DNA of 54,105 nt from a virus. The stretch lies in the IMG/VR virus record IMGVR_UViG_3300002242_000614, positions 3,381 through 57,485 of that record; one strand, 5' to 3'. The notes below the pieces were generated by a model that searched no databases, was not told where the DNA came from, and saw only the letters and a program-made list of their open reading frames with translations. The position numbers and the translations under genes were made by a program. Numbering within the stretch: position 1 is the first letter of the stretch; every line of letters starts with the position of its first letter. Positions 17,090-50,811 of this stretch are shown here, piece by piece.

Positions 17090-20000
17090 TATATTTTTTC
17101 CCCTGTCAAAACCTTTTCCAATGGAGATGGAGATGTGTCTTTATACAATAATCCGTAACTTATTGCTTTATTTATATTTTCAAATTCTAAACCTTGAATA
17201 AATCCTGTTAAAAATACAATTTCTTTAATATTGGCAAAAGCAGGATTCCATTTTTTCCCTAACCTGGCAGGGATATGCATATTGTCTGCATCTCTTAAAA
17301 TGTTGGAAATCAAAACTTCAATATGAATTTGTTCAACATTTTTCAGAGATTTAATTGTCAATAATTTCCTAAGTATTTCTTCTGGAGTTTTATGTATTTT
17401 TTTACCGGCCAATAATCCTTCAACAAAAGGAAGCTTTGCTTTTAGATCTCCAACATCGATTGGTATTGATAAAAATAATATATCTTTATTTATAAGAATT
17501 TCCAACTCTTCTTTCGTATGCTTAGAAATTTCTCCATAATTGGCTAATTTTACTGTGTAATCTAAATTTACATCTAAAACAAACCCGTCTTCAAATTCCA
17601 AAACTCCAATCAAAGATTCCAGCAATATTCCATCGTCATCAAAAATAATTGTTTCGTTTTCGACATAATTTTCTAAATCTATTTTTAATTTAGCATCTAA
17701 TTTCGTTCCAATTTCATTTTCTTCTTGATAAATATATTTCGACAACGTTTTTCTATCTATCGATTCTAAAAGATTATCTAATATGTCCCCAATTATATCT
17801 TTCTTTTCAATTTTAACTGATGTGTCATGAAATGTACTCATCATAAACTGAGTGATTCGTTCACTCAATGTCTGAGCCGCCAAAACTCCTACGAAAGGAG
17901 ATCCATGTTTATATAAAAGTTCACCATAACAAGTATGGCATAATTGTTTACTTTTACAATATATTGGAGTTCTTAATTTTATAATGTCGCCAACTTTTTT
18001 TGTTTCCGGATTAAACAAAACTGGTTTTCCATTTTCAATAATATATCTCCCATTTAATTTTTTCATATTCGAGGAATCCAATTTTAAAACTAATGTTCTA
18101 TCTGTTCTGCAATCTTTTAAAGTTTTGTTTAGCTCAACATCATTCAATAAATACACAAGTTTCCTAGCAAAATATCCGGTGCTTGCTGTATTAACAACTC
18201 TATTAATAATTCCTCGTCTGGCAGATGCAGATGCATTGAAATATTCAGAATTTGATAATCCTTCTGAAAATGAGCTCGTAACTGTTGGCAATAAATTTCC
18301 CTCAGTATCTAAGACAATACCTTTTGCAGCCAATAATTGCATTGGCTGGGACCACCCCTTCGTGGCTCCAGCTTCTACCAAATCATTAAAAGGAGTTTTT
18401 TTCAAATTATCTTTGACAATATTATGTATTTCATCCAAAACTTTCTGAGAATTCTCAGGATCATTAACATCAATCTTTTTCTTCAATTTTTTAACTTTTT
18501 CAGGAAGTTCTAAATTTTTAAGGGTAAATGAATATGGATATAAAGTTGCATATTTGAATGAAATTTTTTGAATTCTATAAAAAACTTCTTTCATTGTTTT
18601 TTCATCATATTTTTTATATACTTCTAAAAAAATATCTTTCATTTTTGATTTATTCACCGTGTAATCTATAAATTTAAAATCCATCGGAAAACAACTATTA
18701 AAAATTGCTTTTCCTATGGTAGTTTTTCTCCCCTTAAAAAATGTTCCTTTATATATGTCTGTTTCTTGAGTTAATTCTTCTACGTTCCGGAAAGTTTTAA
18801 AAGGCTGAGATGGCGGCACATTTTTTGTAAGAACATGAACCCCACTTGCCATCCCCATAGATATTGAAGGCAATAAATCTGCAAAAGAAGAACTGGAATT
18901 TAATTTCATCAATTTCATTTTAGCCTCATTTTGAGCTTCTCTCGAAAGAGGCAAAAATATCGCCATCTGGTCCCCATCAAAATCTGCATTAAAACTTCCA
19001 ACTATCAATGGGCACAATTGAATCGTATCCCCATCCCATATTTTAATTTTAAAGGCCCTGATGCTTCCAAAATGAAGAACTGGGTCACGTTTAGTTATGA
19101 TGACCCTATCTTCAGAAACTCTATTCGCAGATTCAAAAATTATGGCTTTTAATTCTTCATCGATTTTTTCACCATTTTTAATAAATTTTAAAACTGTCTT
19201 TAAAGAATCTATATTAAAATCAACACCAGTTGCCTTTTTTACCAATTCTTTTAATTTTTCTCTGTCTGGATAATTATTGGTATAAACAAGATCGTGAATA
19301 ATATATGGCATTAAAATTGTAGTTGCCATGCGCAAAGGGATTCCAATCTCATCTGGTTTTAAATTTGGATTTGGTGTTATGACCGCACGCCCCGAAAAAT
19401 CCATTCTTTTCCCTAATAATTGTTCTCTTATGATTCCGGTTTTTTTTGAAATTTTAGTTTTTACATATTCATTTAAAGCTAAAACAGATTTTTGAACCCC
19501 GTAATTTAAAACATTATAAAGTTCTTCCTTTTCATTTGTTTTGCTTACTTGCGTAGATTTCTTTATTATATCTATGTAATAATCATTGATCTGATCAATC
19601 ATCCAAAGGCCATCTTCATCTTTATATGCCGGGCGAAATTCTGGCGGAATCACAATTACTCTCTGAATCCCCAAAAGTTTTTTATCATACATTTCATTTA
19701 AAAATTTAATATATTTTTCTCGTGTAGGTGTCTCGCCCCTTAATTTTATTTTTTTAAAATTATTTAGAAAATCAGTTATTCCAATTATTGCGCCTTCTTC
19801 ATCTTGTTCACAAGGAACCAAAGAGCCGTCGGATTCAATTTTAAAATAAGATTCTGTTGAAAATAAACTTTTTAAATTCCTTTGCAATTTAATTAAAATA
19901 TCATATATCACCGGATGTATGACTGTACAATATAAATCTATATAGGCATATGTTTTCTGTCTATCAGAAGAACCTTCAGGACCAAAAATTTTTTCAGAAA

Positions 20001-20100
20001 GAAGTCCATCGTCATCAAAATTTTCACCAGAAAATAAAATATGAGATTTGACTTCCATAAGATTTTTGGTGAAAGCATTAATGTCCATTATCTTTATCAT
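17089..20100 (-). CDS. rpoC: RNA polymerase beta-prime subunit homologue
   Basis: A 1003-residue homologue of bacterial beta-prime (E. coli 1407). Present are the lid/rudder-region sequence RMDFSGRAVITP near 229-240, the catalytic magnesium motif NADFDGDQM near 369-377, bridge-helix and trigger-loop segments (EGLSNSEYF and STGYFARKL near 615-645), a zinc site (CKSKQLCHTCYG near 713) and QFMMSTFHDTS near 750. The N-terminal zinc ribbon of bacterial beta-prime is missing: GLLSEKIFGP runs straight into a segment without the cysteine pairs. The C-terminus stops soon after the EVLISNILRDA segment, without an obvious omega-binding tail. It is a compact but complete catalytic subunit. Confidence 0.97.
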   Translation of the reverse strand: MIKIMDINAFTKNLMEVKSHILFSGENFDDDGLLSEKIFGPEGSSDRQKTYAYIDLYCTVIHPVIYDILIKLQRNLKSLFSTESYFKIESDGSLVPCEQDEEGAIIGITDFLNNFKKIKLRGETPTREKYIKFLNEMYDKKLLGIQRVIVIPPEFRPAYKDEDGLWMIDQINDYYIDIIKKSTQVSKTNEKEELYNVLNYGVQKSVLALNEYVKTKISKKTGIIREQLLGKRMDFSGRAVITPNPNLKPDEIGIPLRMATTILMPYIIHDLVYTNNYPDREKLKELVKKATGVDFNIDSLKTVLKFIKNGEKIDEELKAIIFESANRVSEDRVIITKRDPVLHFGSIRAFKIKIWDGDTIQLCPLIVGSFNADFDGDQMAIFLPLSREAQNEAKMKLMKLNSSSSFADLLPSISMGMASGVHVLTKNVPPSQPFKTFRNVEELTQETDIYKGTFFKGRKTTIGKAIFNSCFPMDFKFIDYTVNKSKMKDIFLEVYKKYDEKTMKEVFYRIQKISFKYATLYPYSFTLKNLELPEKVKKLKKKIDVNDPENSQKVLDEIHNIVKDNLKKTPFNDLVEAGATKGWSQPMQLLAAKGIVLDTEGNLLPTVTSSFSEGLSNSEYFNASASARRGIINRVVNTASTGYFARKLVYLLNDVELNKTLKDCRTDRTLVLKLDSSNMKKLNGRYIIENGKPVLFNPETKKVGDIIKLRTPIYCKSKQLCHTCYGELLYKHGSPFVGVLAAQTLSERITQFMMSTFHDTSVKIEKKDIIGDILDNLLESIDRKTLSKYIYQEENEIGTKLDAKLKIDLENYVENETIIFDDDGILLESLIGVLEFEDGFVLDVNLDYTVKLANYGEISKHTKEELEILINKDILFLSIPIDVGDLKAKLPFVEGLLAGKKIHKTPEEILRKLLTIKSLKNVEQIHIEVLISNILRDADNMHIPARLGKKWNPAFANIKEIVFLTGFIQGLEFENINKAISYGLLYKDTSPSPLEKVLTGEKI

Positions 20101-28304: not shown

Positions 28305-31300
28305 TTATAATGAAATATTATCAAATCCAAAAATATGATCCAATGAATTTTTTCTTGGGTTTCTTTCAACCTCCTGTGCTTTAAATATTGGTTTCAATAA
28401 ATAATCTTTTCTATCTTCAAATGCAAATTTCATATTCGCATCTATATCAATAATAAAATATTCTGGCAATCTTTTTTCTTCATATGGCAATGCAATCATA
28501 TTCAAATTTTTTACAGAAGAAGAATATGAAATAAATTTCTTAGCTATATCTTTGCCTGCTTTCTCTTTGTCAATCCCTTTTATTTTAAAAAGATATCCTT
28601 TGGAAGATGGTATATGATAATCATAAACCAATTCATTCCAAGCCAACATTGCCAAAACAGCGGGCGGGACTTGTTTATAATCATCAATTGGTTTATTCCA
28701 AGTCGCTGGCCTGGCAATTCTTGGATCTCCGGAAACAACCATATTTAAAAACTTCTTTCTTTCAGTTCTTATAAACTCTTCTATCTCTTTCAAGGAAATT
28801 TCATCGTTATATAAAATTATATGTAATAAATCTTTTAAAAATCTTTTACTTTCAGATGGAAAATCAGATCTTCTGATTTCAATTCCTCTATTCACAACTT
28901 CATCTATTTTTTTACCTTCCTGAAAAATAACTCTTGTTGAATATCTCTTTTTCGCAAGAAATATTCCTCTTCTTATGATAAGCTCATTTTTAAGATTTAC
29001 AAAATTATGCTCATCCGGATTAATATTATGTTTTCTAATAATATTGGTCATAATATTATTATTCAAAAAATCTTGAATTTTTTCACAGCTTTCTAAAACA
29101 TATTCCACCGTTTGTTTTTCTTTTGGAAAATCATTGAATGAAATAAAAATAGAATCTGTATCACCAGTTACAATATATGGATATTTTTCAGCATCCATCT
29201 CTTTAGAAAAAAAGGTATCTTCATCCAAAGGATTTGGCTCTACATATTTGCCTTTATTTAAAGAATCCATAAAGGCATTGCCATAAATAATAGATGATTT
29301 GGTTACTTCTTGACCAGACAAAGTTATTGCTTCTGACATGGATAAATTATAAAATCTAAAATTCTTATTAGAAATAATTCCATAAAGCGCATTGGCCAAA
29401 ATTTTATACGCTTTCTGTCTTATATCAAAAAATTTGGATACATCTTTGTTTCCTTTTTCTTTCTCATCTAACATTTTACTTTTATACCCTTTTCTTTTCT
29501 TTATAAGAGATTGTAATATTTCTGAATAATATGAAAGCTTTTTATTATAGGATGTAAAAAAACATCCATTAATTGTTACAGAATATTTTTGTTCGGAAAT
29601 TTCTTTTAATAAATCTGTTTTTTTTATTTTTTCAACATTATCATTGATGAGAGGCTTTCTGATTATTTCTAATTCATCTGGCAATTCATCGGGATTATAA
29701 ATTAAATTAAAACCATATTTTTCATTTTTTAATTTTAATTCAAATGTTTCCACACCAATATTATATTGCATAATCATACTTGGATACAAACTTGTAAAAT
29801 CCAAATCTGCAAGCCAATCATAAATTCCTGGAATTGGTTCAAGAACAAATGCGCCTTTATTTTTTCTAATCTGTTTCACGTCAAGTGCATTCCGCACAGT
29901 ATAACCATGTTTTCTCAAATTAGAAATAACCGTGCTATCTACAAAACCAAATGGGCTTGAATAACTGAATGTTGTATTACAAACGGCTCTCAATTCATCA
30001 AACAAATCTATGTGGCAAACTTTTTTCTCAATATCTTCAAGCAATTCAACATCTCGAATATTGTATTCTATCGCTTTATTTATATCATGATAAAAAACAT
30101 AATTAAATCCCTCTTCTATCTCAATCTTAGTTTTATCCAGTTCAACATTTCCTATGTATCCCAATTTATAACTTTCTCGTTTATTTTGATTAAATCGTTT
30201 ATACAATTCCAATTGGTCAACAACAACATATCCACAAATATTGAAAATATTTGCTTTTTTATTTATATAAACTTTTCTAAACGGAGATAATAGATTTGTA
30301 TCCATGCCTAAATTTTTTAATCGATTATAAATATATAAAATATCAAATTGTTTAAAATTCCAACCAGAAAGAAAATCCGGGTTCATTGAGTGAAGATCAT
30401 TTATCATAGCAAGCAAAAGATTTTTTTCCGATTTGAAAGTTTTCAAATCCCATTTTTCAGGCGCATCAATTTTATTTTTATCGCATTTATTATTGGAATC
30501 CAATAAATAGGTTATATATCTCCCGTTGTATTTTATTGTGGCCATAACAATTGGATATTCTGCTTTATCAGGAATAGGGAAATTTCCTCGATCCCCATTC
30601 ATAGTCGAAGCAACTTCGATATCGCAATACCATATATTTTTATTGCCAGGATTTGCCTCACCTTTATTTTTAGAATAATAATCAATAGAATGTTTAACAG
30701 TTGGATCAATATCTCCTTCAAAAATATTGTCTTTGTCCGGAAAAAATTCTGAATATTCTATTTCTTTTAACTCCAATTCATCAAAAGCACATATTTTTCT
30801 CCCATCATCATTTCTTAAAATATAATAAGGATAAATATTTGGAAGTTGATGAAAAATTTTTCTATTCTTTTTATCTCTAAAAATATATAAAATTTTATCT
30901 CCCAGTGATTGAATATCAACCAATTTATAATTATCTGTGTAAAATTTATCTGGAAGATCAAATGTTTTCATTCCATTTTTTTGTTCGCCATCTTCCTTTT
31001 GAGATTGTTCTATTTCGATAGGTTTCCCTTTTTCCAAAAAGGTTTTTATTTGTTTAAAATTTTCTTCATATAATGGAAGCATAGTTTTTTGTTTTCTTAA
31101 AATATAAGAAGGATGATATATGAAAAAAATATCATAACCATTCCATTTTTTAAACTTTCCAACTAGTTGATTTATTTTTTCTGGGAAATCAAAGGCAAAA
31201 GCTCCGCTTCCACCCATAATGACAATTAATTTTGGGTTACAGGTTTCTATTATTTTAAATACATTTTTTCTGCAATTTAGTATCGTGTTTATAGATGGGT

Positions 31301-31586
31301 TTCCCGTTCTCCCATCTGGGAGGAGAGTTTGACAAAGAACAACATTTGTTATTAAATAATTAATTTTATCCAAATTAAATTTGCGAAAAAAATTTCTAAA
31401 GAGTCTTCCACTTCTACCAACTAATGGCTTGCCTCTCAAAGTTTCTGTTTTGCCGGGATTCTCAGCAATATAAATTACATCAACTTTAGATAAATCATCT
31501 TCACAGTTTGTTTCAAGAATGCATGAAGGAGCATTTATTAATTCGCAAGAAAAACAATCTGCTTGTGATTCAATTATTGAAAACAT
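28305..31586 (-). CDS. Uracil-DNA glycosylase - family B DNA polymerase fusion
   Basis: A 1093-residue fusion. Residues 1-190 are a family-4-type uracil-DNA glycosylase: four iron-sulfur cysteines (C11, C14 in CFSC; NVVLC and ILNC near 105 and 125), AENPGKTE near 47-54, GKPLVGRSG, and the HPSYILR motif near 158. The polymerase follows: exonuclease I YCDIEVAS near 318, exo II SGWNFKQFD near 395, exo III YNIRDVELLED near 490, motif A DLDFTSLYPS near 590, motif B with NALYG near 730, and motif C TGDTDS near 803. All catalytic acids are present, so it should be an active replicative polymerase with proofreading and a built-in uracil sensor. It is the only DNA polymerase seen in the window. Confidence 0.95.
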   Translation of the reverse strand: MFSIIESQADCFSCELINAPSCILETNCEDDLSKVDVIYIAENPGKTETLRGKPLVGRSGRLFRNFFRKFNLDKINYLITNVVLCQTLLPDGRTGNPSINTILNCRKNVFKIIETCNPKLIVIMGGSGAFAFDFPEKINQLVGKFKKWNGYDIFFIYHPSYILRKQKTMLPLYEENFKQIKTFLEKGKPIEIEQSQKEDGEQKNGMKTFDLPDKFYTDNYKLVDIQSLGDKILYIFRDKKNRKIFHQLPNIYPYYILRNDDGRKICAFDELELKEIEYSEFFPDKDNIFEGDIDPTVKHSIDYYSKNKGEANPGNKNIWYCDIEVASTMNGDRGNFPIPDKAEYPIVMATIKYNGRYITYLLDSNNKCDKNKIDAPEKWDLKTFKSEKNLLLAMINDLHSMNPDFLSGWNFKQFDILYIYNRLKNLGMDTNLLSPFRKVYINKKANIFNICGYVVVDQLELYKRFNQNKRESYKLGYIGNVELDKTKIEIEEGFNYVFYHDINKAIEYNIRDVELLEDIEKKVCHIDLFDELRAVCNTTFSYSSPFGFVDSTVISNLRKHGYTVRNALDVKQIRKNKGAFVLEPIPGIYDWLADLDFTSLYPSMIMQYNIGVETFELKLKNEKYGFNLIYNPDELPDELEIIRKPLINDNVEKIKKTDLLKEISEQKYSVTINGCFFTSYNKKLSYYSEILQSLIKKRKGYKSKMLDEKEKGNKDVSKFFDIRQKAYKILANALYGIISNKNFRFYNLSMSEAITLSGQEVTKSSIIYGNAFMDSLNKGKYVEPNPLDEDTFFSKEMDAEKYPYIVTGDTDSIFISFNDFPKEKQTVEYVLESCEKIQDFLNNNIMTNIIRKHNINPDEHNFVNLKNELIIRRGIFLAKKRYSTRVIFQEGKKIDEVVNRGIEIRRSDFPSESKRFLKDLLHIILYNDEISLKEIEEFIRTERKKFLNMVVSGDPRIARPATWNKPIDDYKQVPPAVLAMLAWNELVYDYHIPSSKGYLFKIKGIDKEKAGKDIAKKFISYSSSVKNLNMIALPYEEKRLPEYFIIDIDANMKFAFEDRKDYLLKPIFKAQEVERNPRKNSLDHIFGFDNISL

Positions 31587-31642: not shown

Positions 31643-32122
31643 TTATGCTTCAAATATTAATTTGGTTATTGTTTCTGCCACATCCTCAATGTTGTGTGCA
31701 AGTATGGCATTTAAAAATGGAGACTTTATTCCCCAGCCCATACATTCTGGGCATTCTTCAAAAACGGATGCTTCTGGGGTTTTGAGAATAACCATGCCGT
31801 GGTTGCATTTTGGGCATGGAGCGGGCGTTCTCTTCTTCCCCGTGTAGTTGCAATCAGAGCATCCTTGCCCCTTGCATCTTTTGCAAGTATATGTCTTTTT
31901 GCCAGTCCCCTGGCAATAAAAACATTTCGCCTTTTTTATCTTATATGTTACCTTTTTTAATATGACCCCTCCTTGGCAATGGGGACAATCAAAGGTGGTT
32001 GGGATTTTCTTCCCGGATAGAATTAATCTTTTTACTGCGTTGTTTTTTTCACGTTTAAAGAAATATGCCCCGTTAAAATCCCCATTCTCCAATTTTGCAA
32101 AAAATTTACTGATTGCTTTCAT
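31643..32122 (-). CDS. DnaJ-type zinc-finger protein
   Basis: A 159-residue protein with the cysteine-rich repeats of the DnaJ central domain: CPHCQGG, CFYCQGTGK, CKRCKGQGCSDCNYTGK, CPKCNHG and CPECMGWG, from about residue 42 to 130. There is no J domain, so it cannot by itself stimulate DnaK. The zinc domain of DnaJ binds unfolded protein. The gene is G+C-richer than its neighbours, has a perfect ribosome site (rc AAAGGAGG) and its own promoter-like motif and hairpin, suggesting strong independent expression. It could help folding together with the GroES-like protein, or bind nucleic acid instead. Confidence 0.85.
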   Translation of the reverse strand: MKAISKFFAKLENGDFNGAYFFKREKNNAVKRLILSGKKIPTTFDCPHCQGGVILKKVTYKIKKAKCFYCQGTGKKTYTCKRCKGQGCSDCNYTGKKRTPAPCPKCNHGMVILKTPEASVFEECPECMGWGIKSPFLNAILAHNIEDVAETITKLIFEA

Positions 32123-32174: not shown

Positions 32175-32189
32175 AATAAATATATATAG
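32175..32189 (-). promoter_or_regulatory. Promoter-like motif (TATATATATTTATT type)
   Basis: On the minus strand it reads CTATATATATTTATT, then AGTGATAG, about 55 bases before the DnaJ-like gene. It shares the TATATATATTTATT core with the motif at 12028 and is close to those at 45929, 47125 and 48397. Confidence 0.5.
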
Positions 32190-42899: not shown

Positions 42900-43289
42900 T
42901 CAGGATGGTATTTCAATTTGAATTTCAAACCCATCCTGAATCCAAGTCAAATAAATGTTGTTGTGATTATCCTTGTATATACTTGGGGATGTATTTATTC
43001 CAAGATTTGCCGATGTTATGGTAGCATCCAAATAAACCCCCTGTATATCCTTTTCAGGTTGCCACCATGTCAATCCATTTCTACCAAAAATAGGATGATG
43101 TATTTTGATTTCATGTTTGAAATTATTTTTATAATATATTAAAAACAATTTGCTTGAATCCGCCTTTCCGTATGGGGGCCATCTATACTCCGGCCTTGCC
43201 ACAATATCATCCACGAAAATAAGGTGTGGAAATATTTTTTCATTTGTCTTTTCACGAGAAATCATCTCGAATTTAATTTTTTCTGACAT
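42900..43289 (-). CDS. Hypothetical protein, duplicated unit (long copy)
   Basis: A 129-residue protein rich in aromatics with a beta-type pattern (YRWPPYG, LTWWQPEKD), ending in WIQDGFEIQIEIPS. The same ending and the same MSE beginning occur in the 20-residue frame directly upstream (43401-43463), which has lost the middle. The flanking ribosome site (rc AAGGAGG) and terminator are also duplicated. No family is recognised. Confidence 0.7.
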   Translation of the reverse strand: MSEKIKFEMISREKTNEKIFPHLIFVDDIVARPEYRWPPYGKADSSKLFLIYYKNNFKHEIKIHHPIFGRNGLTWWQPEKDIQGVYLDATITSANLGINTSPSIYKDNHNNIYLTWIQDGFEIQIEIPS

Positions 43290-43389: not shown

Positions 43390-43400
43390 GTTTATATTTA

Positions 43401-43463
43401 TCAGGATGGTATCTCAATGTGTATTTCAAAACCATCCTGAAGCCACATCATTCTCTCGCTCAT
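43401..43463 (-). CDS. 20-residue mini-gene, deleted paralogue of the 129-residue gene
   Basis: A short frame with an excellent ribosome site (rc AAAGGAGGAG, seven bases before ATG 43463). It encodes MSE, a few residues, then WLQDGFEIHIEIPS, matching the first three and last fourteen residues of the 129-residue neighbour. The most economical reading is tandem duplication, then loss of about 110 central codons in frame. It could still be translated into a short peptide. Confidence 0.6.
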   Translation of the reverse strand: MSERMMWLQDGFEIHIEIPS

Positions 43464-43519
43464 AGTCTCCTCCTTTTTTTTTTGAAAAAATAAAAAACAT
43501 ATCTATCCTATCATTGATT

Positions 43520-43531
43520 CATATATATAAC
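43520..43531 (+). promoter_or_regulatory. Possible promoter motif before the protease gene
   Basis: The sequence CATATATATAAC lies 23 bases before the start of the plus-strand gene at 43554 and 10 bases before its AAAGGA site. It resembles the TATATATA core of the recurring motif and is placed where a promoter would be needed, since this gene is flanked by minus-strand genes. Confidence 0.35.
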
Positions 43532-43553: not shown

Positions 43554-44189
43554 ATGTTGAAAATGACATATTTTAAATATCTTTATTTAACTTTAATAAA
43601 CATTTTCTTAAATTTTAAAATCAAATACAAAACTGATATTAAAAAATATAAAATCGAAGAAAGATGGACAGTCAATTTCAAAGAAGGGGATTGTGATGAT
43701 TATACATTGACGAAATTATATTTTTTAATAACACATTTTGGGAAAAAATTATTTAATCCAAAAAATTTATGCATAGCTGAATGCTTTGTTGAAGATGAAG
43801 AGACTGGAGAAGTTGGAGGTGGGGAAGGTCATTTAGTTTTGATTGTCAGAACAAACAAAGGTGATTATGTTCTGGATAATAGATTTCTTATAATTCCACC
43901 ATATTATAAGCAGAGATATTATTATAAAAATATTTTATATGGAAAAGATTGGTATTCGATAAAAAATGATGATCATGAAAAATTTAAATTCAGAAAAACC
44001 AAATTTGAAAAGGCAATATTTAATTTAATATATTTTTTAAGAATATTATTTTTTGGCGTTCCGAGATCTAAAAGCATGATTTTAAAAGAGCTAGTCATTA
44101 TGCCATATGGTTTTTATGATTTATTAAAAAGAAAAAACAAAACCGATGAAGAAAAAGAAATAATAAAATTTTGGGGACTTGAAAAATAA
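43554..44189 (+). CDS. Transglutaminase-like cysteine protease (BTLCP type)
   Basis: A 211-residue protein matching the bacterial transglutaminase-like cysteine proteinase family (DUF920/peptidase C93 type). The catalytic cysteine is in KEGDCDDYTL near residue 46, the histidine in GEGHLVLIVR near 91, and the aspartate in DYVLDNRF near 104-107. A hydrophobic N-terminal stretch (residues 5-22) could be a membrane anchor. It stands alone on the plus strand, with the site AAAGGA, just before the tRNA gene on the other strand. Family members are often linked to secretion or periplasmic processing; the target here is unknown. Confidence 0.8.
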   Translation: MLKMTYFKYLYLTLINIFLNFKIKYKTDIKKYKIEERWTVNFKEGDCDDYTLTKLYFLITHFGKKLFNPKNLCIAECFVEDEETGEVGGGEGHLVLIVRTNKGDYVLDNRFLIIPPYYKQRYYYKNILYGKDWYSIKNDDHEKFKFRKTKFEKAIFNLIYFLRILFFGVPRSKSMILKELVIMPYGFYDLLKRKNKTDEEKEIIKFWGLEK

Positions 44190-44192
44190 TTA

Positions 44193-44278
44193 TGGTGCTC
44201 GGGAAGGGAATCGAACCCTTACGGCCAATGGCCCAGGGATTTTAAGTCCCTTGTGTCTACCAGTTCCACCACCCGAGC
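44193..44278 (-). tRNA. tRNA-Leu (anticodon UAA), CCA encoded
   Basis: The minus strand folds into a class II tRNA: acceptor GCTCGGG/CCCGAGC, D arm with TGGTAGACA, anticodon stem AGGGA/TCCCT with loop CTTAAAA (anticodon TAA), a long variable arm (GGCCATTGGCC region), T arm GGGTTCGATTCCC, discriminator A, and an encoded CCA. The length is 86 bases. It reads UUA/UUG leucine codons, which are frequent in this AT-rich genome. No other tRNA was seen in the window. Confidence 0.96.
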
Positions 44279-44516: not shown

Positions 44517-45236
44517 TTAATTATTCTCATATGTTAACCCAAATATATTTATATCAATCCCATCAAATAATACATTATAATTGAACAGAAATTGTCCTTT
44601 CTTTTCAGCGTGTACTGAAAATGAAACATCTTCTTCATTTTCAATCATGAAAGCATCTGATGGAAAGAACATTTCAAAATCAATATTTTCAACCATATCA
44701 ATATTATCTATAAAAACCATATTTTGATCTTTTGAAAGAGAATCAACCATAATGGATGCTTTGCCATCTTTTGATTTCAATTTCAAACTGTCTATATCAA
44801 ATATCTGTAATGCCACTCTTATTCTATCTGAAATTATTTTAGGTATGCTTGTTTTTAAAATGCAATTTTTGTAAAAAATATCATAAATATTATCAATGCT
44901 TTCAATATATGGAGTTTGGCAATATGATGAATCTGTTTTGTTTATTGTTAATTTTGAATATCCATCTTTAATAATTAAGGATTTATCGTCAACCTCTATT
45001 TTTACATCATCTCTGAATGTCTCAAATAATTTGATCTTTCTTTTCATATCATGAAAATTAAAAGTGAGTTCTCCAAGAATATCAACTAAATTTATATCAT
45101 AAACAACTCTTCTTGAATCATCATATTGTGCAATTCTTCCATTTTTTATATCTATGAATGTCATGTTTTCTTTTAATATTTTAAACAATTTCACAACCGT
45201 TGAAAAATCTTTCCCTAAAACGTCAATGCTATACAT
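44517..45236 (-). CDS. Candidate sliding clamp (T4 gp45/PCNA type)
   Basis: A 239-residue acidic protein with the size and beta/alpha rhythm of gp45 and PCNA: two similar halves of alternating strands, a central linker near 120, and a C-terminal strand (DGIDINIFGLTYENN) that resembles the closing strand of gp45-type clamps. A clamp is expected because a clamp-loader gene is at 49810. No residue is diagnostic by eye, so the call is moderately sure. It overlaps the gene at 45229-45432 by 8 bases. Confidence 0.65.
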   Translation of the reverse strand: MYSIDVLGKDFSTVVKLFKILKENMTFIDIKNGRIAQYDDSRRVVYDINLVDILGELTFNFHDMKRKIKLFETFRDDVKIEVDDKSLIIKDGYSKLTINKTDSSYCQTPYIESIDNIYDIFYKNCILKTSIPKIISDRIRVALQIFDIDSLKLKSKDGKASIMVDSLSKDQNMVFIDNIDMVENIDFEMFFPSDAFMIENEEDVSFSVHAEKKGQFLFNYNVLFDGIDINIFGLTYENN

Positions 45237-45453: not shown

Positions 45454-45825
45454 TCATGAAAAAATTATTTTAATATATTTCTTCCCTTTCTCATTTATAT
45501 ATTTAATATCAAAAATATAGTCAAAATTCAATTCTATATATTTGAGAAATGTAATTATATATTCATTCCTCTTTTTTAACTCTTCAATATCATTGAAAAA
45601 TAATATTAAACAATATTTATTGTTATTTAATAATGCGAATGAATTTATGTTGGATATGATGTTTTGGGATTCCCCAGAAAATGAAATGATATCTTCATAA
45701 GATATATCATCAAATTGATGATCAATTGTTTTGGCTGAATCTATGATCTTCTTTAGATTTTTATTTATGATTTCTATTTCTATTTCCGAAATATTCGATT
45801 TCTCTTTAGTTCCTTTTTTAGCCAT
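45454..45825 (-). CDS. Hypothetical protein
   Basis: A 123-residue protein with a basic start and a mixed alpha/beta body (YCLILFFNDIEELKKRNEY near 71-89). It starts at ATG with rc AAAGGTG eight bases upstream. It is the first gene of the candidate clamp operon. No family is recognised. Confidence 0.65.
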   Translation of the reverse strand: MAKKGTKEKSNISEIEIEIINKNLKKIIDSAKTIDHQFDDISYEDIISFSGESQNIISNINSFALLNNNKYCLILFFNDIEELKKRNEYIITFLKYIELNFDYIFDIKYINEKGKKYIKIIFS

Positions 45826-45870
45826 TTATAAACACCTTTCTTATATTTCGATGATATCTAAACATGTCTT

Positions 45871-45881
45871 TTAATATATAG
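45871..45881 (-). promoter_or_regulatory. Possible promoter for the clamp operon
   Basis: On the minus strand CTATATATTAA lies about 45 bases upstream of the first clamp-operon gene, 10 bases after TTGACA. The core resembles the recurring TATATATA motif. It is back to back with the plus-strand motif at 45929, as expected for a divergent intergenic region. Confidence 0.4.
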
Positions 45882-45928
45882 GAATAGTTTTGTCAAGTAT
45901 TTTTATGAATAAAAAACTATTTGAAATT

Positions 45929-45949
45929 GCTATATATATTAATAAATAG
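45929..45949 (+). promoter_or_regulatory. Promoter-like motif before the GC-rich island
   Basis: GCTATATATATT, followed by AATAAATAG, lies just before the structured leader of the MYG1-like gene. It shares GCTATATATATT with the motif at 12028 on the other strand and closely resembles those at 47125 and 48397. Confidence 0.55.
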
Positions 45950-45960
45950 TAGTATAAGGC

Positions 45961-46025
45961 TTGTCTTCGGTAAAGGCCAGTTCTCTCGGGGGGAGAATGT
46001 TTGGAGCTACACTGACCGAAGACAA
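45961..46025 (+). ncRNA. Structured leader RNA, element 1
   Basis: Eleven-base arms TTGTCTTCGGT (45961-45971) and ACCGAAGACAA (46015-46025) pair perfectly. Directly inside, CAGT (45978-45981) pairs with ACTG (46011-46014), with a 6-base bulge on the 5-prime side. An inner hairpin TCTC/GAGA encloses a G-rich loop. The element lies between a promoter-like motif and the MYG1-like gene in a region far richer in G+C than the flanks. No known riboswitch class is recognised. Confidence 0.6.
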
Positions 46026-46054
46026 TGGCACCCCGTTTATTAACCATTAACGTC

Positions 46055-46126
46055 CCCGTCAACAATACGGGATATAAACCGAGGGTGATATCGTCCTCGG
46101 GGAAGTTCTCGGAATAACTTGACGGG
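46055..46126 (+). promoter_or_regulatory. Structured leader element 2 with alternative pairings before the RBS
   Basis: CCCGTCAA (46055-46062) pairs with TTGACGGG (46119-46126), enclosing a hairpin CCGAGG/CCTCGG (46079-46100). The same CCCGT can instead pair with a nearby ACGGG (46067-46071) across a 7-base loop. The outer 3-prime arm ends three bases before the ribosome site GGAGGG of the MYG1-like gene, so the choice of fold could affect translation. This is a riboswitch-like layout; a ligand cannot be guessed. Confidence 0.55.
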
Positions 46127-46138
46127 CCGGAGGGTGCG

Positions 46139-46975
46139 ATGGTTAAGTACATCGTCACTCACTCCGGGGGAGCTCACCGGGATGAGATCCTGGCGGTTGC
46201 CCTCGCTCTCAACGTAGAGAAATTCGTTGGGACTCCGAGGGTATATCGCCGGGATCCGAATCCCGGTGAGTTCGAGGACCCCCAAGTCCTCGTCCTTGAC
46301 GTAGGGCTGAGGCACGAGCCGACGCTCAACAACTTCGACCATCATCAGATGGAACCGAAGGTTGAGACGGCTGAGTGCGCGCTCAGTCTCTATGCCAAGG
46401 CAAGAGGACTTGAGGATTCCCTCAGGTACCAGAAATGGTACCGCACAAGCATCATTCTTGATGCTTGTGGGCCGTTTAAAACGGCGGGGGATCTGGGGTT
46501 GCCTCGTTTTCCGATGGAGCTGTTGTCTCCCATCGAAAGCGTTCTCATAGACGCTTTCCAGGGATGCGGCTCCGAGGTTAACGAGGCCGTCCTTGAGATC
46601 CTGGCGGGTCTCGGCAAGCGTATTCTGGCGAAAGCCAAAGAATACGTTTCCATAATCGAAGACCTTAAAAGCAAGGTCAAAATTATGGATATTGCCGGGG
46701 TCCAGGCCCTTGTTCTTGAGCAATCAGGAACAAAAGGGCTACAGGATCTTAGGGATGACCTCTTCCCGCAGGCTGGGATTTCCATTCTCCACGATGACCG
46801 TGGAGATGGATGGATCCTCTATCGTTTCAATGACGATAGAAGGGTCGATTTCAGCCTGCTGGGGGAGGACCCTAGAGTCCTCTTCGCCCACAAGGGGGGT
46901 TTTATTGCCAAAACCCTCCATCGGCTACCTCTTAATGAGGTGGTCGAGCTTGCTGCCAAAGGCGTAATAGCCTAG
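46139..46975 (+). CDS. MYG1-like DHH-type phosphoesterase (UPF0160)
   Basis: A 278-residue protein of the MYG1/UPF0160 family. The N-terminal metal motif THSGGAHRDE (7-16; MYG1 THxGxxHxDE) and NFDHHQ near 64-69 (the DHH motif) are clear, with further acidic residues in DVGLRHEP. MYG1 relatives are DHH-superfamily 3-prime to 5-prime RNA exonucleases or nanoRNases. The gene is visibly GC-rich compared with the AT-rich genome, is on the plus strand, and has a strong ribosome site (GGAGGG). It is shorter than eukaryotic MYG1 (about 380). Recent transfer is likely. Confidence 0.85.
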   Translation: MVKYIVTHSGGAHRDEILAVALALNVEKFVGTPRVYRRDPNPGEFEDPQVLVLDVGLRHEPTLNNFDHHQMEPKVETAECALSLYAKARGLEDSLRYQKWYRTSIILDACGPFKTAGDLGLPRFPMELLSPIESVLIDAFQGCGSEVNEAVLEILAGLGKRILAKAKEYVSIIEDLKSKVKIMDIAGVQALVLEQSGTKGLQDLRDDLFPQAGISILHDDRGDGWILYRFNDDRRVDFSLLGEDPRVLFAHKGGFIAKTLHRLPLNEVVELAAKGVIA

Positions 46976-47004
46976 GCACAAGTTGTGGGTGGCCCCGGTG
47001 CGGT

Positions 47005-47050
47005 TACCACGCCGCCTCAAGAAATGTGGTAGGGGTTTGGCAATAAACCC
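47005..47050 (+). other. Tandem hairpins after the MYG1-like gene
   Basis: TACCAC (47005-47010) pairs with GTGGTA (47026-47031), and GGGTTT (47033-47038) with AAACCC (47045-47050). Together with the terminator hairpin just downstream they form a three-hairpin 3-prime region of about 75 bases. It could be a stabilising 3-prime UTR or part of a small RNA. Confidence 0.45.
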
Positions 47051-47053
47051 TGG

Positions 47054-47084
47054 GAAGAGGAGGATATCCCACTCTTCTTTTTTG
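47054..47084 (+). terminator. Terminator of the MYG1-like gene
   Basis: GAAGAG pairs with CTCTTC across a loop containing the palindrome GGATATCC, followed by a T-run (TTTTTTG). Confidence 0.75.
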
Positions 47085-47124
47085 TAAAAATATTTTTCTT
47101 TTTAATCATAAAAGATATTAAAAA

Positions 47125-47149
47125 CATTATATATATTTCTTAATGAAAG
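47125..47149 (+). promoter_or_regulatory. Promoter-like motif before the 231-residue gene
   Basis: CATTATATATATTT, then CTTAATGAAAG. Together with about 20 upstream bases (AAAAGATATTAAAAAC) it closely matches the region at 48381-48420, showing a conserved upstream block of about 40 bases before two genes of the island. Confidence 0.55.
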
Positions 47150-47185
47150 ATATAGACATATAACAAAAAATCAAAGGAGACCATT

Positions 47186-47881
47186 ATGAAAACCGCACCA
47201 AACCCCACCCCAAACAGCGTCAAAGAGTCCCTCTCAATTGCCAAGCAGGTCAGGTGTTGTCCTCCTCCCGGCCTGAAGTCCAACGGCTATGAAAAATTTT
47301 TAAAAAAGCACATGGGCCTGTGCCCGTACTGCGGCACGGATCTTTCCATTTATGATAACAATGATGCACCGTGGGAAAAACTCGCAGACCGGCTGCAGAG
47401 GGTGCTGAAAAAAAGTAAATCGGAAGGCCCAATTAAAAAAGGTGAGCTAAGGAGGATTGCATCCAGGCTTGCCGGATGGCGAGATGGTTTTTATTACAAC
47501 CCGCCCCTTGTAATTGTTTATGAAGTAGATGCCGATTTCCCGGAAATTGTGCAGGTCGTACAGGTGTATGACGACATTCTGCTTGCCGGACCCGGGGATC
47601 TAATATTAACCGAAGATATGACCAACGGTACGGGCAGCCTCCTGGTAGAATGCTGGAATTCCTATACCATTAAGGCTTCTTTCTTAGATCCAACAATCTC
47701 TGTATTATCCGAAGAGATTATGGATGCCGTTTGTGAAATGGTGACAAACGAGGCATATACCCCGTCCTGGGCTCTTCTGCCCCCGCCTATGACTGAACAT
47801 GATCCCAGAAGATATTTCCGAAAACTCGAGGTTGATGTGGCCTATACCTTTGGTTCATATGCCGCCTCTGAACTCATCTAA
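47186..47881 (+). CDS. Zinc-finger-like protein of the GC-rich island
   Basis: A 231-residue protein. Near the N-terminus, CCPPPGL, a spaced His and CPYCGTDL (about residues 24-52) resemble the small zinc domain of anti-sigma factors (zf-HC2 type). The remainder is mixed alpha/beta with many acidic residues and no membrane segment. Codon use is G+C-richer than the flanking minus-strand genes. It has its own promoter-like block, a ribosome site (AAAGGAG) and a strong terminator. Function is not established; a regulator binding a sigma-like partner is only a guess. Confidence 0.65.
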   Translation: MKTAPNPTPNSVKESLSIAKQVRCCPPPGLKSNGYEKFLKKHMGLCPYCGTDLSIYDNNDAPWEKLADRLQRVLKKSKSEGPIKKGELRRIASRLAGWRDGFYYNPPLVIVYEVDADFPEIVQVVQVYDDILLAGPGDLILTEDMTNGTGSLLVECWNSYTIKASFLDPTISVLSEEIMDAVCEMVTNEAYTPSWALLPPPMTEHDPRRYFRKLEVDVAYTFGSYAASELI

Positions 47882-47887
47882 CCACAT

Positions 47888-47928
47888 CCCCCCTGCACAT
47901 TACAATAGTGCAGGGGGGCAATTTTTTT
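47888..47928 (+). terminator. Strong terminator
   Basis: A perfect 11-base stem (CCCCCCTGCAC and complement) with a 9-base loop, followed by CAATTTTTTTG. A textbook intrinsic terminator for the 231-residue gene. Confidence 0.95.
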
Positions 47929-47960
47929 GTAACTTTTCAAACAACTTAAGGAGGTGTTAT

Positions 47961-48152
47961 ATGGAAAAATATATAAACATACCACTGTACTGCGAAAAAT
48001 GTCGCCACTGTCTCAGACAAGGCGACATAATGGTTGGTACCGATAAAACTGGAGGTGGGCCAGAAGATTCATATTCCTGTACTAAAAACAGGAACATGAC
48101 ACACTATTGGTTCCACAATACCAACTGCCCAGACTTTGAAGATTATTATTAG
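47961..48152 (+). CDS. Small Cys/His-rich protein
   Basis: A 63-residue protein with cysteines and histidines spaced as a possible zinc-binding knuckle (YCEKCRHC near 10-17, then a cysteine near 40 and HNTNC near 52-56). The start ATG 47961 has a very good site (AAGGAGG, seven bases upstream), which is why I reject the longer upstream frame. A strong terminator follows. Function unknown. Confidence 0.72.
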   Translation: MEKYINIPLYCEKCRHCLRQGDIMVGTDKTGGGPEDSYSCTKNRNMTHYWFHNTNCPDFEDYY

Positions 48153-48168
48153 AATTATTAATTAACAA

Positions 48169-48198
48169 GCAGGGGGCTGATTCAAATCAGTTCCCTGC
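48169..48198 (+). terminator. Terminator after the small Cys-rich gene
   Basis: A 14-base stem (GCAGGG, GG/TT wobble pairs, CTGATT against AATCAG and CCCTGC) with a two-base loop, which in practice will open to four or more. A-T-rich sequence follows. The remaining bases up to 48396 hold no gene. Confidence 0.8.
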
Positions 48199-48396
48199 AC
48201 AAATTTTAATTTTCAAATTTATTAACAGAGTGACAAACATCAAACTAAAATCTCTATTCAAAACAATAATCATGAGAACAAATAAATTCTCTATCACTTT
48301 AATAACAATATCAAAATCAATTTAGTATAATAATATCCCACTCTTTTTTTTTTTTTTTAAAAATAATTCCCCTTATTTATAAAAGATCTTAAAAAC

Positions 48397-48420
48397 GCTA
48401 TATATATAAATTAATGAAAG
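48397..48420 (+). promoter_or_regulatory. Promoter-like motif before the 57-residue gene
   Basis: GCTATATATATAAATTAATG, then AAAG. Preceded by AAAAGATCTTAAAAAC, it matches the block before the 231-residue gene (47107-47149) over about 40 bases. Confidence 0.55.
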
Positions 48421-48463
48421 AAATAGATGAATTAAAATAAATAATGAAAGGAGGTGATGATGT

Positions 48464-48637
48464 ATGAGAATTATAGGTGTAGATAAGAATGGAGTCGTGG
48501 TCTTCTCGGCCACATCTGAATCCGAGGCCCGAAGAAAGCTCCTCGATAGGAGCTGGGGCAGGGGCAGGGATCGGAAGGTTCGCGAGGAGACTGAGGCAAA
48601 CGATGATGTAACCGAGGCGAAGGACACGCCTCGATAA
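48464..48637 (+). CDS. Small charged protein of the GC-rich island
   Basis: A 57-residue protein: a short beta-like start (MRIIGVDKNGVVVFSA), then an Arg/Glu-rich helical part. The G+C content is high. The site AAAGGAGG lies 8 bases before ATG 48464; a competing ATG at 48458 gives only a nine-codon frame. A terminator follows. It was too short and unlike its flanks to be grouped with any known gene. Function unknown. Confidence 0.62.
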   Translation: MRIIGVDKNGVVVFSATSESEARRKLLDRSWGRGRDRKVREETEANDDVTEAKDTPR

Positions 48638-48653
48638 ACAAAAAAAAAAAACC

Positions 48654-48681
48654 ACGGGGCTACCATCATGCCCGTTTTTTT
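48654..48681 (+). terminator. Terminator after the 57-residue gene
   Basis: ACGGG pairs with CCCGT (12-base loop) and is followed by TTTTTTT. It marks the right end of the plus-strand, GC-rich island. The 110 bases up to 48790 hold no gene. Confidence 0.75.
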
Positions 48682-48790
48682 ATCATCGTTTATTTATAAA
48701 ATTTAACTTTATAATCGATGTTAAACAAAAACACAAAACCATTTTTTTGTCCAAAAAATATTATCTACAAATATATTTTTAATCAACATA

Positions 48791-49789
48791 TTAAATTTTA
48801 AATTTATTAACAATAACAGGCATTTCTGCAAAATCTCCCCCAGAAGTATTATAATAAACATCCATTGAATTTAATAAATATGATCTTTCTTTTTTAAATT
48901 TTTTATAATATTCTATTGGGATATTTGAATCGGATAAGACAATCAAATCAAATTTACCAACATATTCATATAATAATATGGAATTTATAATCCCATAAAA
49001 ATTTTGTGATAATGCAGAATAATACCCAAAAATTTTTTTGTCAGTTTTTATAAAATCAAAATATTTTTGAGCATATATATCGAATATTCCTTCCCCGATT
49101 AAAATTCCAGTTCCATTCAAATTTCCATCTATTTTATAATAATCCGGAAACGAATTGGTTTTTTTATTTCCTATAAAAAGTTTATAATATCTAAAATCAT
49201 CAAAAGAATCAATATTTCTACAAACAATCATTGTTTTATGTTCTGTTAAAAATCCAATGAATTTATCTTGGAGAAAATTTATCATATGATTTCTTTTATT
49301 ACCTTTGGGGAAAGATATATTATTTCTTCTTAAAAAATGTTTAAAATCAAAGATTAATCCTTTGATATCATTGAAATCATTTTTTATAAATCCCAATCTT
49401 TTTTTCAAATATATTTTCTTATATGGGAATCTGTCTTTATCATCATCTATTATATAATTTTTATCATACTCTTTTTTTGTAAGAATTTTATCTGTGTGAA
49501 TATATTTTAATTTATCTTCATCAACAAATTTGCCTATCTCTTTTTTATTTAAAGAAAAAACTTTTTTAATAAACTTTCCTATGAATCCATGGCCATCTTT
49601 ACAATCTTTTCTAAAACAATTAAAAATTGGAACTTCCAAAGAAATATAAAGATGATAATGAGATCTTTTTTGTGGGTATTCACAATAGGGACATGGGCAA
49701 ATAATATTTGAAGATGTTATTTTTACATTCTCTTCCCCAAATACATCCTTTAACCTTTCAATAAATTCTTCCTTATAAATTCCAATCAT
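48791..49789 (-). CDS. DnaG-type DNA primase (T4 gp61 type)
   Basis: A 332-residue primase. An N-terminal zinc ribbon is formed by C31, C33, C36 and later C58 and C63. A TOPRIM core is visible from about 225 (GILIGEGIFD, with the catalytic Glu) to 285 (LIVLSDSN, the Asp site). It would make RNA primers for the lagging strand. It lies 20 bases downstream of the clamp-loader gene, with a ribosome site (rc GGAG) before ATG. A second, unrelated LigD-type primase-polymerase is at 20581. Confidence 0.85.
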   Translation of the reverse strand: MIGIYKEEFIERLKDVFGEENVKITSSNIICPCPYCEYPQKRSHYHLYISLEVPIFNCFRKDCKDGHGFIGKFIKKVFSLNKKEIGKFVDEDKLKYIHTDKILTKKEYDKNYIIDDDKDRFPYKKIYLKKRLGFIKNDFNDIKGLIFDFKHFLRRNNISFPKGNKRNHMINFLQDKFIGFLTEHKTMIVCRNIDSFDDFRYYKLFIGNKKTNSFPDYYKIDGNLNGTGILIGEGIFDIYAQKYFDFIKTDKKIFGYYSALSQNFYGIINSILLYEYVGKFDLIVLSDSNIPIEYYKKFKKERSYLLNSMDVYYNTSGGDFAEMPVIVNKFKI

Positions 49790-49809: not shown

Positions 49810-50811
49810 TCATTTCTTAGATGATAATATTAACATTTCCTTTATCATATTTCCAATCTCAAATATCATTGCCACAAAATGCATTTCATCAACAAGACAA
49901 TCTTTATGATTATTGGCATATTTATTTATTATGACTTTTACATTGGATGGAATATTTTTATCTGCAAATAACTTTGTGTAAAGATTTGAATAATTTATAT
50001 CTTTATTTGAAGATAATATATCAACTATATTGTGTAAATTATTGGAAGCTTTTCTTTTATTCTTTTTGATAAAATTTTGAATGATTTCTTTGACAAGTAA
50101 AATTATCTTATTTTCATTATCATCAAGAACATTTTTATCAATAAACAATTCAGTTCCTGATATAGATGATCTTTCAAGTTTATTAATTATTTTTCTTACA
50201 TCAGGATAAAACATTTCAATTATTTTTTTGACATCTTCTTCTTTATATTTGATATTTTCTTTTTCTAAAATATTTTTACAAAAGATAAGCGTTTTATCAA
50301 AAGATATTTGTTTGAAATAATACTCATCGAATCTACTTCTAACTGGGTCTGGAATTTTATTTGGATAATTACATGTGAGAATAAATCGGCCTGACTTTTT
50401 TGAGAATTTTTCAATGATATATCTCAAAGACAAAAAGGCATCTGGAGATAGATTATCTCCCTCATCTATAAAAACAACTTTATAATTATCTTCTCCAAAA
50501 GGAGGGGAAACCAAAAATGGTTCAACAACTTCATCAATAAATTTAATTGATCTATGCTTTTTTGATGAACCACTTACAAATAGAACATTCTCCATTGGAT
50601 GTTGAATTATTCCATTTGGACTGCAAATGATTAAAGCTAATGTTGTCTTTCCACCCCCAGGACTCCCATAAAATAAAAGATTTGTTAATTTCTTTTCTTT
50701 AAAATATCTTTCTATGCTTTTTCTGAAATCATCGTCGAGAATCATATCATCTAACGTTTTCGGTCTCCATTTTTCATACCATAACGATTCGACTCTTTCT
50801 TTAATTTCCAT
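49810..50811 (-). CDS. Clamp loader ATPase (RFC small subunit / T4 gp44 type)
   Basis: A 333-residue AAA+ protein. WYEKWRPKTLDDMI (11-24) is the RFC box, Walker A GSPGGGKTT is at 49-57, Walker B VVFIDEGD near 112-119, sensor 1 LTCNYPNKI near 145, and the SRF arginine finger near 158 is the interface typical of clamp loaders. It opens and loads the sliding clamp. No gp62-like partner is recognised in the window; one of the unknown genes may serve. The ribosome site is rc GGAGTG. Confidence 0.92.
   Translation of the reverse strand: MEIKERVESLWYEKWRPKTLDDMILDDDFRKSIERYFKEKKLTNLLFYGSPGGGKTTLALIICSPNGIIQHPMENVLFVSGSSKKHRSIKFIDEVVEPFLVSPPFGEDNYKVVFIDEGDNLSPDAFLSLRYIIEKFSKKSGRFILTCNYPNKIPDPVRSRFDEYYFKQISFDKTLIFCKNILEKENIKYKEEDVKKIIEMFYPDVRKIINKLERSSISGTELFIDKNVLDDNENKIILLVKEIIQNFIKKNKRKASNNLHNIVDILSSNKDINYSNLYTKLFADKNIPSNVKVIINKYANNHKDCLVDEMHFVAMIFEIGNMIKEMLILSSKK

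Follow-up and report, generated by a model that had tools for sequence, protein, structure and literature searches.

A GC-rich gene block encoding a MYG1-type phosphoesterase within the replication-gene cluster of an uncultured phage

The block and its insertion site

The DNA analyzed here, called the window, is the stretch of 54,105 nucleotides covering bases 3381-57485 of the 57,485-base IMG/VR virus record IMGVR_UViG_3300002242_000614. It is AT-rich, and nearly all of its genes lie on the minus strand, except for a block of four plus-strand genes (46139-48637) in the 2,965 bp between a primase-like gene and a small gene of the opposite strand (Table 1). Gene 1 encodes a MYG1-type DHH-DHHA1 phosphoesterase. 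Gene 2 encodes an orphan protein with one CxxC, gene 3 a Cys/His-rich protein and gene 4 a charged orphan protein.

G+C content and codon usage were scanned across the window, and the block stands out in sliding windows, in individual genes and in codon scores. Relative to the 42 other genes of the window (0.285 ± 0.042, maximum 0.394), genes 1 to 4 have G+C contents of 0.54, 0.48, 0.40 and 0.54, corresponding to z values of 6.1, 4.6, 2.6 and 6.1. Codon log-likelihood z values for the same genes are -8.1, -5.9, -2.7 and -8.1, and the lowest background gene scores -3.4. G+C at third codon positions (GC3) is 0.41-0.61, compared with a genome mean of 0.23. The two 1-kb steps at 46001-48000 have G+C of 0.54 and 0.44, and no step outside the block exceeds 0.36; the highest 500-bp window reaches 0.566 inside and 0.432 outside. 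These values confirm the original prediction, made from the letters of the window, of an opposite-strand island with G+C far above that of its flanks. However, the promoter parts of the block are AT-rich, and G+C is uneven among the four genes. Because intergenic DNA within the block drops back to 15-37% G+C, the block alternates between GC-rich genes and AT-rich regulatory DNA rather than being a single uniform GC-rich piece.

Three relatives (L003, L090 and L100) have a clamp loader, a primase-like gene, a small gene and a clamp in this order. In these, 8, 34 and 9 bp, respectively, separate the primase-like gene from the small gene, with nothing between them. Relative to these three syntenic relatives, whose site is empty, the block has been inserted into the DNA-replication cluster. 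The related phages compared for gene order thus do not all carry the same genes, of the same composition, at this place. Recent uptake of foreign cargo, as had been predicted, is well supported by the unadapted composition and by the empty site of the three relatives. Small zinc-ribbon genes occur at another point of the cluster, between the clamp loader and the primase-like gene, in two of these phages (L003:9969-10554 and L100:6914-7560), and the window has none there. They suggest that small inserts may be accepted at more than one point of the replication cluster.

Table 1. Positions of the block, its genes and predicted regulatory features, and of other genes in the window
Feature	Position	Strand	Remarks
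Inserted block	45826-48790	.	between primase-like gene and 123-aa gene
Predicted promoter 1	45910-45965	+	TATATATAT at 45931; upstream of gene 1; 2 mismatches to pattern
5' leader	45945-46138	+	GC-rich, structured, ~190 nt; precedes start of gene 1
Gene 1, MYG1-type phosphoesterase	46139-46975	+	278 aa; Pfam, alignment, AlphaFold2, fold search
Terminator-like hairpin and T-run	47052-47083	+	after gene 1; whole 108-nt stretch z -1.1
Repeat copy 1	47072-47171	+	100 bp; predicted promoter 2 (TATATATAT at 47128) and 3' arm of gene 1 terminator
Gene 2	47186-47881	+	231 aa; orphan, one CxxC
Strong terminator hairpin, then T7	47888-47918	+	after gene 2; z -4.6
Gene 3	47961-48152	+	63 aa; Cys/His-rich; no promoter of its own
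Stem-loop	48169-48198	+	after gene 3; no strong T-run; z -6.3
Repeat copy 2	48343-48442	+	100 bp; predicted promoter 3 (TATATATAT at 48399)
Gene 4	48464-48637	+	57 aa; charged, orphan
Terminator	48645-48681	.	between convergent units; T-runs on both strands; z -2.4
Primase-like gene	48791-49789	-	right neighbor of block
123-aa gene	45454-45825	-	left neighbor of block
Clamp-like gene	44517-45236		24% identity to L003 gene at same place
Clamp loader	49810-50811		phrog_168, 1.4e-58
DNA polymerase	28305-31586		phrog_262
RNA polymerase beta	12971-17089	-
RNA polymerase beta'	17089-20100	-

The window encodes a T4-like replication set comprising a DNA polymerase, a clamp loader, a Dda-like helicase and the clamp-like gene, which is presumably the sliding clamp, judging by its position and T4 gene order. 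The primase-like gene had no family match in Pfam or PHROGs and is named for its location and Cys/His pattern. The phage itself also encodes the beta and beta' subunits of RNA polymerase (Pfam RNA_pol_Rpb2_6, 2.1e-41, and Rpb1_2, 1.6e-34). No DNA match to the window was found among known phages. A second plus-strand gene amid minus-strand genes (43554-44189) is AT-rich; it encodes a transglutaminase-like cysteine peptidase (Pfam Peptidase_C93, 3.1e-20) and adjoins a gene for tRNA-Leu (44193-44278, minus strand).

The MYG1-type protein and the other products

The product of gene 1 matches Pfam family PF03690 (MYG1_exonuc, UPF0160) at 5.6e-10, with 39.8 bits against a curated cut-off of 22.1. 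Each of the 29 relatives in the alignment also matches PF03690. The N-terminal part of a profile built from these relatives retrieves solved MYG1 exonucleases at 3e-13. The C-terminal match of the profile to these chains, at an F-x-H-x-x-G-F motif, is collinear and not significant. We named the protein “MYG1-type” because C-terminal homology to MYG1 rests on this match and the fold there is DHHA1-like. The DHH catalytic motifs are intact, with H8, H13, D15, D54 and D67-H68-H69 invariant in the 29 sequences. An AlphaFold2 model of the protein has a predicted local distance difference test score (pLDDT) of 95.3, and a Foldseek search with it gave 16 PDB matches at E < 0.001, all or nearly all of them DHH enzymes. 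The leading folds are DHH-DHHA1 enzymes, namely the pGpG phosphodiesterase PggH, RecJ, nanoRNases and NrN, and the modeled protein has the two-domain DHH-DHHA1 fold. The assignment as a MYG1-type phosphoesterase in the original prediction was therefore right.

Like MYG1/UPF0160 exonucleases, the protein has the HxGxxHxD(D/E), DxG and DHHQ motifs, DHH and DHHA1-like domains and, by the non-significant match described above, the C-terminal motif. Unlike them, it is ~280 aa long (327 in solved MYG1s), scores in Pfam with its N-terminal part alone, and belongs with copies that form a phage-borne group. The same two-domain fold, as modeled, is found in standalone enzymes of the nanoRNase A/B and PggH type, but these are only ~8-15% identical to it and are not retrieved by sequence profiles.

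Relatives in IMG/VR are 52% (L001), 43% (L005 and L006), 40% (L007) and 27% (L009) identical to the protein. A scan of GTDB gave one contig, L010, at 45-47% and then cellular proteins at 30-37%. None were found in 50,697 phage records or in plasmids by tblastn, and none in PHROGs. In a tree, the window protein groups with those of L001, L010, L005 and L006 (support 94/87); L007 lies near this group without a firm place in it, and long branches restrict the deeper order. Because the closest kin (40-53% identity) are phage-borne and group apart from cellular MYG1s (31-37%), the donor of the gene was probably another, GC-richer phage rather than a host. Host acquisition, which had been implied by the suggestion to search host genomes, is disfavored since cellular proteins are further off in both the scan and the tree.

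L010 (JAADFO010000023.1) is a 7.6-kb contig from the bin of a DPANN archaeon. It carries a MYG1 of the phage lineage and small genes with strong Shine-Dalgarno sites, has only weak matches in PHROGs, and may be a misbinned piece of a phage. Relatives of the gene sit in unrelated neighborhoods. Small genes also lie 3' of MYG1 in L001, where the stem-loop AACAACCGYGGTNCTGANNGCCRCAGAA occurs three times within 1.6 kb (L001:5900-7470), as leaders before the small genes just after MYG1, and nowhere else in the 100 kb of L001. This other phage thus has an array of modules there. Zn-ribbon proteins adjoin MYG1 in L001 and L010, and their last 37 residues are related (57%); these two loci are suggestive of an association between MYG1 and small Zn-ribbon proteins. 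The block's own Cys-containing proteins showed no relation to these Zn-ribbon proteins where compared, and homology of genes 2 or 4 to the neighbors of MYG1 in L001 was rejected on comparison.

Searches of Pfam, PHROGs, NCBIfam, PADLOC, phage records and IMG/VR gave nothing significant for the product of gene 2, and the AlphaFold2 model of this protein has a pLDDT of 34. Its earlier description as zinc-finger-like rests on one CxxC, with no family match. The product of gene 3 gave a non-significant match (E 0.1; 42% over 37 aa) to hypothetical proteins from tailed viruses of haloarchaea, and family searches and IMG/VR yielded no relatives of gene 4. As had been predicted, these three proteins remain orphans after the searches. 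A self-mobile element (homing endonuclease, transposon or integron) was rejected, as none of the four proteins matched a recombinase or transfer nuclease.

Promoters, terminators and leader

The motif TATATATAT was found at six distinct sites, all intergenic in a window of which listed open reading frames (ORFs) occupy 82%, and all upstream of a correctly oriented gene. Three sites are in the block and three are native, at 43529, 32188 and 12042 on the minus strand. The consensus of the six is TATATATAT..ATtAaTGA.AG. For the extended motif, 4 sites were found versus 0.13 expected, and 5 versus 0 in a reversed control. Because the motif is common to the block and three native promoters, the cargo is taken to be driven by predicted promoters of the phage's own type. 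Note that a generic scan for sigma-70 promoters and terminators did not single out the promoter and hairpin sites of the block.

Promoters 2 and 3 are each located in one copy of a 100-bp repeat; the two copies are 74% identical, and the second-best match in the window reaches 57%. The repeat starts inside the 3' arm of the gene 1 terminator, as expected if the promoter segment was copied. Three promoters are predicted for four genes, and ~25 nt separate the terminator of gene 2 from the ribosome-binding site of gene 3. Since that site is 3' of a strong terminator and gene 3 lacks its own promoter, gene 3 is probably expressed by read-through. The original description of independent expression cassettes therefore holds for the promoter-like sites and hairpins. 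It does not hold for the number of promoters, nor for their independence, as the regulatory DNA resembles that of the phage and is partly duplicated.

At ~43400-43529 (minus strand), a native TATATATAT promoter is followed by a 20-residue ORF (MSERMMWLQDGFEIHIEIPS) whose sequence recurs at the C-terminal end of the gene that comes next (42900-43289, WIQDGFEIQIEIPS). This ORF has the look of a reduced copy left behind by gene turnover under this promoter type. Directly behind the native motif at 32188, a gene with raised G+C and atypical codon usage (z -2.4) encodes a 159-aa protein with six CxxC motifs, resembling DnaJ/TFIIB-like zinc ribbons (31643-32122, minus strand).

The leader of gene 1 has a folding z of -2.6; of 200 shuffled versions, one folds at least as stably. 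The Shine-Dalgarno sequence and AUG are predicted to be paired (probabilities of being unpaired 0.01 and 0.00, respectively). Local pairing with the coding start contributes to this, because the pairing is also predicted with most of the leader removed. The leader contains an 8-nt stretch (TTAACCAT) complementary to the start region; such a stretch occurs in ~2% of shuffled leaders too. Known riboswitches and noncoding RNAs were rejected, as no Rfam family was found for this leader or for that of L001. From the predicted structure, the leader is a possible translational switch.

Origin and function of the block

We favor, with a probability of about 0.6, a horizontally acquired cargo block in which a MYG1-type nuclease has come under copies of the phage's promoter type. 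GC-rich genes, of which at least the MYG1-type gene would derive from a GC-richer phage, would have been inserted in opposite orientation into the replication-gene cluster, placed behind copies of the phage's own type of promoter and closed off by terminators. The predicted promoters would be active, and the buried start site would keep translation of the MYG1 message low until opened. During infection, the enzyme would be a metal-dependent exonuclease that trims RNA or short oligonucleotides in the 3'-5' direction, with a role in host RNA turnover and nucleotide recycling. Such an activity is the most likely one given the family, as human and yeast MYG1 are reported to be 3'-5' RNA exonucleases (PMC10089162; PMC11167044).

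Several observations weigh against this reading. The three relatives with an empty site are distant (primase 36-42%, clamp 24-26% identity), and so there is a small chance that they have lost the block. The 123-aa gene on the left cannot be aligned with its counterparts, which match it by size and position only, making the exact ends of the insert uncertain. For the enzyme, the Pfam match covers residues 5-72 only (PF03690 positions 2-66 of 318), and the DHHA1 half is recognized solely by fold and alignment. Fold-comparison Z values are middling (VIA Z up to 7.1), and the MYG1 structures retrieved by sequence lie outside the set of folds compared, so that the comparison speaks to the wider DHH superfamily. 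The structured leader was not found with MYG1 in L005, L007 or L010, so that a regulatory role for it is tentative.

The main rival to RNA trimming is degradation of a defense signal. Sequence does not decide the substrate, because the family points to 3'-5' trimming of RNA and the fold neighbors point also to signal dinucleotides and SAM-AMP. In a counter-defense role, the enzyme would hydrolyze a signal nucleotide (SAM-AMP, linear or cyclic oligoadenylate, or the pApA/pGpG type), and the small Cys-rich proteins would be further inhibitors. DHH-DHHA1 relatives in the fold list act on signal dinucleotides (PggH on pGpG, TM1595 and Rv2837c with pApA, NrN with SAM-AMP), SAM-AMP signaling in type III CRISPR has been described (PMC10600005), and the gene lies in accessory, opposite-strand cargo. 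We nevertheless consider this role doubtful: identity to any signal-specific enzyme is only ~8-15%, the family takes its name from RNA exonucleases, and there was no match in PADLOC, which lists defense genes rather than counter-defense genes. More speculative still is a phage lineage of MYG1-type enzymes, passed among unrelated phages with small Zn-ribbon or Cys-rich partners and acting on a defense signal or host RNA, which here would have leader-switched translation and be transcribed from promoters recognized by the polymerase that the phage encodes.

In yeast, MYG1 limits the L-A RNA virus, and human MYG1 can take its place (PMC10089162). By analogy, the enzyme might degrade host RNA or that of co-infecting elements, serving as a weapon of superinfection or takeover. 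Its place in opposite-strand cargo with predicted promoters of its own would suit this role, but the parallel is an RNA virus of a eukaryote rather than a phage, and we regard the idea as unlikely. We give slightly less credence to ancestral genes that were lost in the relatives and held GC-rich by selection. The relatives compared are indeed distant, but the GC3 of the block genes is far from the genome mean, three relatives share an uninterrupted gene order, and relatives of MYG1 sit in unrelated neighborhoods. An assembly artifact, in which a GC-rich fragment was joined into an AT-rich contig, would fit a metagenomic contig with sharp composition steps. It is highly improbable, as a chance join would not place AT-rich segments with the phage promoter motif between the GC-rich genes, and both flanks belong to a single conserved gene cluster.

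Events of this kind are well known in T4-type phages, as shuffling mediated by PeSL promoter/stem-loop modules (Arbiol 2010 and Comeau 2014, as cited in PMC4503421). The block may be comparable to such modules, in which promoter segments recur and stem-loops stand between the accessory genes. By analogy, the 100-bp duplicate could serve recombination. The block differs in its promoter motif, in belonging to a phage that encodes an RNA polymerase, and in lacking a dense array of near-identical copies. Compared with a PeSL unit, it has one 100-bp duplicate with a promoter and half a terminator, and a third promoter without the rest. PeSL promoters are early and sigma-70-like; the candidate promoter motif of the block, TATATATAT, also occurs at native sites. 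The mReC phages, Caudovirales with a multi-subunit RNA polymerase, likewise encode beta and beta' genes, and the phage is a possible member of that group; the available part of their survey (PMC7481178) makes no mention of such an island.

The gain of cargo is clear, fairly recent and of a known general kind. It provides an example, in one uncultured phage, of foreign genes wired to phage-type promoters within the replication core. Less usual are the sharing of a single promoter motif between native and imported genes, with TATATATAT as a candidate recognition site in a phage that encodes an RNA polymerase, and the phage-borne group of MYG1-type proteins to which the block points, a group absent from PHROGs and from the phage records searched.

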